A DNA stretch of 64,000 nt from Methylomonas montana (GTDB lineage Bacteria > Pseudomonadota > Gammaproteobacteria > Methylococcales > Methylomonadaceae), in the NCBI RefSeq assembly GCF_030490285.1, contig NZ_CP129884.1, positions 2,728,001 to 2,792,000 of the forward strand. Direction: 5' to 3'. Shown here piece by piece: positions 26,815-38,745 of the stretch; within the stretch, counting starts at the first letter, position 1; each line of letters starts with the position of its first letter. Position numbers and translations under genes: made by a program. The notes under the pieces were generated by a model. It ran no database searches. It saw nothing but the letters and a program-made list of their open reading frames with translations, and was not told where the DNA came from.

Positions 26815-26819
26815 GCCAT

Positions 26820-26874
26820 AAAAAAGCCTCATAAAACAGGGTTGTCATACAAACCTGTTTTATGAGGCTTTTTT
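26820..26874 (+). terminator. Strong hairpin terminator downstream of tRNA-Ser
   Basis: Two perfectly complementary 21-base arms (26820-26840 and 26854-26874; core AAGCCTCATAAAACAGG) surround a 13-base loop. The arms begin with six A and end with six T, so the structure can terminate transcription in both directions. Confidence 0.8.
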
Positions 26875-27161
26875 ATGGGTAAAACTCCACCTCTTCCGGC
26901 GAAAAACGTCTTTTATTTCCATGTGCGAGTGCACGCACAGCATTGAGACTCGCGACCAATTTTAAAGCCGTGTTTGCTGCTTCCCTACACCAGTTTCAGC
27001 CTGCTGATTTTCGTTAAACTTGGTCGAATGGCAATTCGCAAGAGCATCCCTTAAAATCCGCAGCGGCATCAGTCTGTATCCCGACAGCACACTCTAAATG
27101 GAAGCTCCCTGGCGGCTAGTCAGGGGCACGAATAAGTCAAAACCATAACTACCAAGGACGC
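26875..27161. other. Intergenic stretch upstream of hsdM
   Basis: 287 bases with no convincing gene. A short inverted motif GTGCGAGTGCACGCAC is seen around 26922-26939. The promoter of the restriction-modification operon should be here, but no textbook -35/-10 pair stands out. Confidence 0.4.
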
Positions 27162-33472: not shown

Positions 33473-36400
33473 GTCTGCATAAGGAAATCCACTTCGAAAC
33501 CGAAGTTTGCGAACACTTAGCCGCTAATGGCTGGTTGTATGCATCAGGCGATGCTGGGAGTTATGACCGTGATCGCGCGCTGTTTCCGGCGGATGTGCTG
33601 ACCTGGATTCAAGCCACTGACGTGAAAGCATGGGAAACCTTGCAAAAGAATCACGGCGCTCAGGCTGGCGATGTGTTGCTGGACCGATTACGCGATTCCA
33701 TCAACCAACGCGGCACGCTAGACGTTCTGCGCCAGGGTATCGAGCTAATCGGCTTGAGGCAACCATTGAAGCTGGCACAGTTCAAGCCGGCGTTGGCGAT
33801 GAATCCAGATATTTTGGTTCGCTATGCCGCCAATCGGCTGCGAGTAGTCAGGCAGGTTCGCTATTCGCTGCATAACGAAAATGCCATCGATTTGGTGCTG
33901 TTCCTGAACGGCATTCCTGTCGCCACCGTCGAACTGAAAAGCGATTTCACCCAGTCGGTGGAAGATGCGGTGGATCAATATCGCTTCGATCGTGATCCGC
34001 GACCCAAAGGTCAAGGCGCTGCCGAGCCGTTATTGTCGTTCCCGAATGGCGCGCTGGTGCATTTTGCCGTCAGTCAGATGGAAGTGATGATGACCACCAA
34101 GCTGGAAGGTGCGGCGACGAACTTCCTACCCTTTAATCGCGGCGACCATGGCGCTGCCGGAAATCCTGCCAATGAAAACGGCGGCCACCGCACCGCCTAT
34201 TTATGGGAATGTATCTGGTCCAGGGATAGCTGGCTGGAGATTCTGGGCCGCTACCTGGTGGCGCAGAAGGATAAGAAAAACCAGATCAAGAAAATCATCT
34301 TCCCACGTTTTCATCAACTGGATGCCACACGCAAACTGGTGGCGTCGGTGTTGGCAGAAGGCACTGGCGGCAAGTATCTGATCCAACACTCCGCAGGTTC
34401 CGGCAAAACCAATTCCATCGCCTGGACCGCGCATTTTCTGGCCGATTTGCATAACGCGGGACATCAAAAGCTATTTGACACTGTGCTGGTGGTGTCCGAC
34501 CGCACGGTGCTGGATAGTCAGTTGCAGGAAGCGATTTTCGATTTCGAGCGCACCGCCGGCGTGGTGGCATCCATCAAGGGTGAATCAGCCAGCAAGAGTG
34601 GCGAATTGGCTAGTGCGTTGTCCGGCGGCAAGAAGATCGTGGTCTGCACGATACAGACCTTTCCATTCGCGCTGAAAGCCGTGCAGGAATTGGCGGCGAC
34701 CCAAGGCAAACGCTTTGCGGTGATTGCCGACGAGGCGCATTCGTCGCAAACAGGAGAAGCCGCCGCCAAACTCAAAGCCGTGCTGTCAGTGGAAGAACTG
34801 GCCGAGTTGAACGACGGCGGCGAGGTCGGCACCGAAGATGTGCTGGCGGCGCAAATGGCCAATCGGGCGGCGGATAGCGGCATCACCTATGTGGCATTCA
34901 CCGCCACGCCCAAAGCCAAGACCCTGGAATTGTTCGGTCGCAGGCCCAATCCCGATTTGCCCGCCAGCGCAGATAACCTCCCTGCCCCGTTTCATGTCTA
35001 CTCGATGCGCCAAGCCATCGAGGAAGGCTTCATCCTGGATGTGTTGAAGAATTACACGCCGTATAAATTGGCCTTCAAGCTGGCACACGACGGCAGGGAG
35101 ATCGACGACAAAGAAGTCGAGCGCAGCGAAGCGCTGAAAGGCATCATGCGCTGGGTCAAACTGCATCCTTACAACATCAGCCAAAAGGTGCAGGTGGTCG
35201 TCGAGCATTTCCGCGAGAATGTGTCGCCGCTGCTGGACGGCAAAGGCAAGGCGATGGTGGTGGTCGGTAGTCGCCTGGAAGCGGTGCGCTGGCATTTGGC
35301 GATTGATCAATACATCAAGAGCCAGGGTTACAAGATCGGCACGCTGGTGGCGTTTTCCGGCGAGGTGAACGACGCCGAATCCGGCCCCGATCCGTTCACG
35401 GAAACCAGCCGCAGCCTGAACCCGAATTTAAAAGGCTCCGACATCCGCGAAGCCTTCAAAAGCGACGATTACCAAATCCTGTTGGTTGCCAACAAGTTTC
35501 AGACCGGCTTTGACCAGCCCTTGCTGTGCGGCATGTATGTCGACAAACGCCTGGCCGGCATCGCCGCCGTGCAGACGCTGTCGCGATTGAATCGCGCTTA
35601 TCCCGGTAAGGACACCACTTATGTCGTGGATTTCGTCAACGACCCCGATGAGATTCTGGCGGCGTTCAAGACCTACTACGAGACGGCGGAACTAGCCAAT
35701 GTCACCGATCCGCATTTGGTATTCGATTTAAGGATGAAACTGGATGCGGCCGGTTTTTACGACGAGTTTGAAGTCAACCGGGTGGTTGCGGTGGAATTTA
35801 ATCCGTATGCCAAGCAAAGCGAGCTAACCGGTGCACTGGAACCGGTGGTATCTCGCCTGCTTTATCGTTACAAGGCAGCGCAGGAAAAACTGAAAGCCGC
35901 CACTGCAAAAGAAGACGGCAAGGCGATGGCAGACGCCCAAAACGAACTGAACGCGCTGATCCTGTTCAAACACGACATCGGCGCCTTCCAGCGACTGTAT
36001 GCGTTTCTGTCGCAGATATTCGATTACGGCAATACCGCCATCGAAAAGCGCTTTATCTTCTACAAACGCCTGCTGCCCTTGCTGGAGTTCGGCCGGGAAC
36101 GCGAAGGGATTGACCTATCCAAGGTCATCCTGACCCATCACACCCTGAAACGCACCGGTAAACGCGACTTGGCGTTGGAATCCGGCGATTATCCGAAATT
36201 AATGCCAATGACCGATCCAGGCACCGGCACGGTTCAGGAAAAAGAGAAAGCGTATTTGGTCGAGATCATCGCCAAGGTGAATGACCTGTTTGACGGTGAC
36301 CTGACCGACGATGACCGGCTGGTGTATGTCAACAACGTGATCAAGGGCAAGTTGTTGGAATCGCAGATTCTGGTGCAGCAGGCAACGAACAACACCAAGG

Positions 36401-37216: not shown

Positions 37217-38002
37217 TTAATTCTTGTCGACGGTCACCATGGTCGACGTTTCGCGTTCTTCCGAGTGCGCGCTGCCATCTGCAAGTTGCTTCGATATTAT
37301 CTCCCGCCTGCGGGCGTAAACCGGACGCGATAGGTAGGCAAAGTAAGCCCAAAAAACTGAAGAACCCAATATCACAGCCCCAATGCCTTCGGCCGTCACC
37401 TTAAATCCCCCAATCTCAAAAACTGCGCTGTTTGCAGCATTAACGCCAAGTGTTAGCACGATGGCACCGACAATCAACGCCGTGATTCCGCCAAATGCAA
37501 GAACGACGGCCACGATAGTCTTCATTTTCAAGTAGGCAATATCGACGTCGAGTGAATTGGTTTGCTGATTCATATTGAATACCCAGTTTGTTTTGTTTCG
37601 CGGTTCATACTCAGAGATGTAATCATTTACCTCGGTCACTACTTTTGAATTAGAGGTATAGCTTATTCCGGGCTCAGAAAACAGGAAAAAGTGTATATCC
37701 GCATTTAATCGAATTCTTTCAAGAACTTTTAGCAGACATACTCCTTCAACTATAACTGGCGTTGGAAACATTTCAATAGCCTTGCGAAGAGCGACAAGAT
37801 TCAAACCTTCGACATATTGCCCCGTTCCAGAGCTGCAATATTGATCCATGCTGATCACTGGGAGTTTAAACGACGCACTCAGTTGATTTGCCAGCACACT
37901 TTTTCCGACACCAAGTTCACCATCTATGCCAATAATTCTCAGATTTGCCGTTAACAGGGCTTTATGAAGCAATTTTTCGATTTCAGATTCTACTTGGATC
38001 AT
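37217..38002 (-). CDS. Membrane-anchored P-loop NTPase/kinase-like protein, unrecognised
   Basis: The product has 261 residues. The N-terminal 110 residues look like a small kinase of the uridine-kinase type: IIGIDGELGVGKSVLANQL (Walker A, 28-35), SMDQYC after the second strand and TPVIVEGVCLLKVL as a Walker-B-like strand. Two membrane helices follow at about 162-187 and 205-225, then a basic region (RPVYARRREII) and a charged, probably disordered tail. A P-loop kinase fold joined to a double membrane anchor is not an architecture I can name. It faces the lipoprotein gene and lies between two hsdR-derived sequences, suggesting it came in with them. Confidence 0.75.
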   Translation of the reverse strand: MIQVESEIEKLLHKALLTANLRIIGIDGELGVGKSVLANQLSASFKLPVISMDQYCSSGTGQYVEGLNLVALRKAIEMFPTPVIVEGVCLLKVLERIRLNADIHFFLFSEPGISYTSNSKVVTEVNDYISEYEPRNKTNWVFNMNQQTNSLDVDIAYLKMKTIVAVVLAFGGITALIVGAIVLTLGVNAANSAVFEIGGFKVTAEGIGAVILGSSVFWAYFAYLSRPVYARRREIISKQLADGSAHSEERETSTMVTVDKN

Positions 38003-38483
38003 GATTCATCATTGATTTTTTGAATAACTAATGGCGAATAGATTAAATGTCAGTCTGATATTCGATTTCAAACCGCTTGTATTCCAGCGCGAACCCTTGC
38101 GTATCAGATTATTTACCCAACCTCTGACTGGCATCGCGGTCATCATTTCATAATCCGGATTTTTAAGCAGCCATAAACTTGCTCTGTATCCGCATGCTTG
38201 GTTAACCAAGCGCTTGACCCCGGCACAGGTTCGGTGCAAGAAAAAGAAAAAGCCTATTTGGTGAAGATCATCGCCAAGGTAAATGACCTGTTTGAAGGCG
38301 AGCTTTCCGATGATGACAGACTGGTGGTTTTGCGGTATGTGTGCAATAGGGCTATTTTCTCATGGCGATAAGTTTTTCGAGGTGCCCTACTGTTTAATTG
38401 CAAAGAAAATTTATTCTAAATCAATAGGTTATTATTGAAGCTGATGAATGATAGCTATATCATTAATTTATTGCAATCGTGTG
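38003..38483. other. Gene-poor stretch containing an hsdR scrap
   Basis: 481 bases between the P-loop gene and the palindrome. Apart from the hsdR-derived fragment at 38216-38326 no coding region is convincing. The rest is AT-rich. Confidence 0.55.
38216..38326 (+). pseudogene. Duplicated fragment of an hsdR-like gene
   Basis: About 111 bases translate to DPGTGSVQEKEKAYLVKIIAKVNDLF-type residues followed by EGELSDDDRLV. They match HsdR residues near 916-952 (encoded at 36217-36327) with only a few substitutions (T/S, E/K, D/E, T/S). There is no start and the similarity stops abruptly at both ends. It differs from the local hsdR at many third positions, so it derives from a related allele rather than a fresh copy. 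Confidence 0.85.
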
Positions 38484-38535
38484 TTTTTATGTGATAAACA
38501 GATGACTAATTAGTCATCTGTTTATCACATAAAAA
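38484..38535. repeat. 52-bp perfect palindrome
   Basis: The 26-base arm 38484-38509 (TTTTTATGTGATAAACAGAT, then GACTAA) is followed with no spacer by its exact reverse complement (38510-38535). It ends 9 bases before the ATG of a small membrane protein, and the likely ribosome site (AAGG, 38535-38538) abuts its edge. It could be a regulator binding site, a cruciform or an mRNA hairpin. It does not end in a T-tract in either direction, so it is not a standard terminator. Confidence 0.9.
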
Positions 38536-38544
38536 AGGTTTGTC

Positions 38545-38745
38545 ATGAAATGGACAGGTATTTTTCTTCTCGGTTACGTTATATTGCTCTGTGGAATTCT
38601 TGCTGCACTCTGGAAATTGGGTATTCTGGCTAATATCGGGACGGCATGGGCTGTGATCGGATTCGTTATCGCGCTCGGTATTGGCATTATGCTCGCTGTC
38701 TCCAAAAGCGGTAGCAAAGAAAATATCGAAATCGACCGGAATTGA
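38545..38745 (+). CDS. Small two-helix membrane protein
   Basis: A 66-residue protein with two hydrophobic helices (about 4-26 and 31-52) and a charged tail (SKSGSKENIEIDRN). There is no family match that I know. The start ATG follows a short AAGG site that sits next to a 52-bp perfect palindrome, so translation or transcription is probably controlled by that structure. It lies at the island's distal end. Confidence 0.65.
   Translation: MKWTGIFLLGYVILLCGILAALWKLGILANIGTAWAVIGFVIALGIGIMLAVSKSGSKENIEIDRN

Follow-up and report, generated by a model that had tools for sequence, protein, structure and literature searches.

A perfect 52-bp palindrome beside a conserved small-protein gene of Methylomonas montana: more probably a recent accident than a regulatory element

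Introduction

Does a long, flawless palindrome that ends at the ribosome-binding site of a gene control that gene, or does it mark damage to it? This question is raised by a locus in the chromosome of Methylomonas montana, which we analyzed within a stretch of 64,000 nucleotides (the window; contig NZ_CP129884.1, positions 2,728,001–2,792,000). The locus provides a clean natural case of a bacterial chromosome carrying a long palindrome without spacer, and it has a clear junction with a gene for which many relatives show the ancestral leader. Because the relatives lack the palindrome and the palindrome cuts into the ribosome-binding site, it looks more like a recent accident of DNA than a device of control.

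Structure and rarity of the palindrome

Positions 38484–38535 form a perfect palindrome of 52 bp, with 26 of 26 arm positions complementary and 0 nt between the arms. Its 3' edge lies 9 bp before the ATG (38545) of a 66-aa open reading frame. The features are:

38484..38509, unstranded: left arm, TTTTTATGTGATAAACAGATGACTAA
38510..38535, unstranded: right arm, TTAGTCATCTGTTTATCACATAAAAA, the exact reverse complement of the left arm, spacer 0

An earlier note on this DNA had described two 26-base arms with no spacer, 9 bases to the ATG and an AAGG at the palindrome edge, all of which we confirmed. Its description of the structure as rare also held, with about 1e-9 spacerless palindromes of such length expected by chance per 4.63-Mb genome at the base composition of the window. 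The runner-up in the window measures 16 bp, and in a census of 100 other genome stretches (2.0 of 4.63 Mb, in addition to the window) the longest spacerless palindromes measured 30 bp (one) and 20 bp (three). Given this census maximum, the 52-bp palindrome is an extreme outlier. For a length of 52 bp, the further statement that such a palindrome is prone to deletion lacks an established basis, as the strong evidence for palindrome instability in E. coli concerns palindromes of 246–480 bp (PMC4245961).

The sequence is highly improbable as an artefact of assembly or library preparation arising from a chimeric fold-back read. The assembly consists of one contig with 100% completeness and a contamination rating of 0.01, and 52 bp is short compared with typical fold-back artefacts, which are long.

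A conserved, apparently horizontally scattered membrane-protein gene

The open reading frame next to the palindrome, supported by homologues and structure prediction, is:

38545..38745, plus strand: conserved, uncharacterised two-helix membrane protein of 66 aa

Structure prediction gives two long helices for the protein (mean pLDDT 80), in agreement with its hydropathy. Relatives with 58–80% identity occur in one genome of the same genus (G009) and at 19 loci spread over several phyla, among them Syntrophaceae, Desulfocapsa, Desulfobulbaceae, Methylotenera, Rhodocyclaceae, Chlorobiaceae and Holophagaceae, and the family alignment contains 11 invariant positions. Whether the reading frame is conserved had been raised by the earlier note; homologues at these 20 loci, with dN/dS values of 0.09–0.26 against the window copy, bear this out. 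By these comparisons, the gene is real and intact, and has experienced purifying selection in the past. One group of 10 apparently shared reading frames consists of overlaps of the 66-aa gene on the reverse strand.

The gene is present in 2 of the 61 genomes of the relatives search, the window's own genome included. Genes flanking the homologues are common to close pairs only, and beyond such pairs the homologous loci have no conserved neighbours that would point to an operon function. From this sparse presence and the lack of wider shared neighbours, the gene apparently behaves as a stand-alone, horizontally scattered unit.

Searches for a known identity gave best matches below cut-off with Pfam and NCBIfam profiles, and no meaningful match in PHROGs (best E = 0.13). 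The term toxin-like, used previously for this protein, drew on nothing beyond size and hydrophobicity, and no test marks the protein as a toxin. Rfam yielded no match to an antitoxin of a type I toxin–antitoxin system; its matches were all sub-cut-off and nearly all to miRNA models, as expected for any long hairpin. Among described systems, a comparison can be made with WatS1–5, small transmembrane polypeptides of about 50 aa from Methylomonas sp. DH-1, of which WatS1–4 have one predicted transmembrane domain (PMC10355033). Like the 66-aa gene, they are often missed by annotation and may belong to the same genus, whereas the protein studied here is longer and has two predicted helices. It has no name, has apparently moved horizontally, and merits description as a family.

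The palindrome is confined to one lineage and adjoins a probably truncated leader

No second copy of the palindrome or of an arm (26-mer or 20-mer) was found in its own genome with up to 3 mismatches; a search for other copies had been proposed by the earlier note. At the same tolerance, neither palindrome nor arm occurred in 60 relatives, and the 40-bp core was absent from 369 genomes sampled from the class. Viral contigs contained no exact arm match, and blastn against plasmids and phages returned no match to the palindrome. At the 20 homologous loci, no comparable palindrome precedes the gene, the best being 8–9-bp arms with spacers; the homologue in the same-genus genome G009 has an ordinary leader. 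As far as these sequence collections reach, the palindrome is private to one genome or lineage.

The leader of the relatives reads AGGAGGTTTGTC-ATG or, in a longer type, ATAAAGGTYTAATCTCATCAGGAGGTTTGTY-ATG. Comparison with AGGAGGTTTGTC defines what is left of it in the window:

38536..38544, plus strand: leader remnant AGGTTTGTC, a weak Shine-Dalgarno site

Identity between the window and its relatives covers AGGTTTGTC-ATG only and stops at 38536, the first base past the palindrome. The right edge of the palindrome is thus the very point at which half of the conserved AGGAGG is lost, leaving AGG. With the leader identity ending there, the predicted pairing of the Shine-Dalgarno site with the anti-Shine-Dalgarno sequence falls to −3.4 kcal/mol in the window. 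The relatives range from −5.0, the weakest, to −12.3 kcal/mol, mostly about −10 to −12, and joining the flanks without the 52 bp gives a predicted −6.3 kcal/mol. Judging from these models, the truncated leader probably lowers the expression, or translation, of the 66-aa gene.

The longer leader is itself informative about the gene. Its 30 nt (ATAAAGGTYTAATCTCATCAGGAGGTTTGTY) are nearly identical at L009, L010, L013, L014 and L022, loci from Syntrophaceae, Desulfocapsa and Desulfobulbaceae, which suggests that the small gene and its leader travel as a unit.

Regulatory readings of the palindrome

If transcribed from a start near 38435–38463, the palindrome would fold into a 5'-UTR hairpin that could cap the mRNA, invite RNase III cleavage or shield the 5' end, and restrict ribosomes at the AAGG. 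The RNA hairpin is predicted to be very stable (z = −6.9 for the region; −32 kcal/mol on its own), it adjoins the ribosome site, and a promoter-like site lies upstream:

38435..38463, plus strand: the sole upstream promoter-like site on this strand, TTGAAG-17-TATCAT, 9/12; the count is no higher than in shuffles

Bacterial 5'-UTR stem-loops such as that of the ompA leader protect mRNA or gate translation, and in them, as at this locus, a stable hairpin lies immediately upstream of the ribosome site. Unlike them, the hairpin here occurs in one lineage only, with no conservation; since no homologue has a comparable structure, there is no covariation either. Promoter-like sites are as frequent in shuffled sequence, and the ribosome site of the window is degraded relative to all relatives. 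The strength of the predicted fold keeps hairpin control a possibility, which we rate as rather unlikely. Of the earlier interpretation, a palindrome regulating a small membrane protein, the conserved and predicted two-helix protein stands, whereas comparative support for a regulatory palindrome is missing.

A role as the operator of a dimeric or tetrameric regulator of the small gene would suit the palindromic form, the position upstream of the gene and the outer words TGTGA/TCACA. However, the arms far exceed the usual length in operators and contain no mismatch anywhere, the sequence is single-copy in a genome where a regulon operator predicts more, and no candidate is present at any homologous locus. 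We give this reading very little credence.

Mobile-element debris and a possible element origin

Debris of mobile elements flanks the locus on both sides, with an hsdR fragment and an insertion-sequence end to the left and an IS3 remnant to the right:

38216..38326, plus strand: fragment of an hsdR-like gene (type I restriction subunit), 82% identical to 36214–36324
38322..38387, unstranded: solitary insertion-sequence end, terminus GGGCACCTCGAAAAA on the minus strand, with other copies in the genome
38982..39733, plus strand: decayed insertion sequence of the IS3 family, to the right of the gene

The hsdR-like fragment is a duplicate lying about 2 kb downstream of its matching stretch. Relatives of the GGGCACCTCGAAAAA terminus elsewhere in the genome (L074–L078) are putative IS5-type ends, and L074 has a closely similar stretch. 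Also to the left, a 261-aa reading frame of unusual architecture (37217–38002, minus strand) combines an N-terminal P-loop kinase-like stretch (weak, sub-cut-off) with subsequent hydrophobic segments.

In a locus so full of insertion-sequence debris, the palindrome could itself be a mobile-element remnant, a pair of terminal inverted repeats joined head to head into a minimal MITE, for example TA-TGTGAT...ATCACA-TA, and the inner 40 bp are indeed bordered by TA on both sides. The symmetry nevertheless runs past the TA, unlike a target duplication, and no direct repeat lies outside the 52 bp. No further copy of either arm exists in the genome with 3 mismatches allowed, and the viral, plasmid and phage collections gave no match, making an element origin distinctly unlikely. 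Membership in a repeated MITE or other repeat family was rejected, the palindrome being single-copy in the genome (26-mer and 20-mer arm, up to 3 mismatches).

A telomere-resolution site was likewise rejected, with the best protelomerase (PF16684) score in the genome at 11.7 bits against a cut-off of 27. The telRL sites of telomere phages (PMC10612081) resemble the present sequence as large palindromes, but here there is no protelomerase above cut-off, no adjacent telN and no phage match.

A rearrangement product as the best explanation

Confinement to one lineage, an exact breakpoint in the leader, surrounding mobile debris and a damaged ribosome site together point to a recent rearrangement product. 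On balance we favour, as somewhat probable, a recent lineage-specific event, most likely fold-back copying, that broke the leader. The event would be an inverted duplication or an insertion, with fold-back template switching the likeliest route. A replicating strand may have turned back on itself and copied a short stretch in inverted form alongside, which would account for flawless arms with a spacer of 0. The new DNA would have joined the gene within AGGAGG, leaving AGG with a 26-bp hairpin against it, and the gene would have stayed intact, although probably less well translated.

In E. coli, template switching is a documented route by which inverted repeats become perfect (PMC7202029). The quasipalindrome mutations described there share with our proposal the fold-back copying of a nascent strand into perfect inverted repeats with no protein-specific site. 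By comparison, the arms here are long and the mechanism is our inference.

Neither arm aligned with the relatives' leaders better than shuffles did, and an empty-site test was marginal, with p = 0.06 when all relatives were used and 0.22 with the closest five, so that insertion, replacement and duplication are indistinguishable at this locus. Three specific histories were considered and set aside. A right arm representing the ancestral leader, with the left arm its copy, was hinted at by GTTTA-TCACAT in L022, and a left arm representing it by GATAAAC in L021 and L024; neither rose above shuffles. Simple insertion at a recognizable empty site had only the marginal p values just given.

The favoured rearrangement could also have acquired a use. 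A new 52-bp palindrome born by fold-back may have been recruited as a hairpin switch replacing the ancestral ribosome site of a mobile, conserved gene; we consider this composite scenario very unlikely.

Inverted repeats as possible terminators

The arm sequence of the palindrome is 23% GC and ends in A5, and a search for an intrinsic terminator (a GC-rich stem with a run of T after it) found no terminator-like site there. Another long hairpin of the window, at 26816–26878, has 25-bp perfect arms and a 13-nt loop (CCATAAAAAAGCCTCATAAAACAGG...), and A and T runs on either side suggest a bidirectional terminator. At L015, positions 1807–1838 form a 32-bp spacerless palindrome (CAATAAAACCAGCCACGTGGCTGGTTTTATTG) that is possibly a terminator as well.
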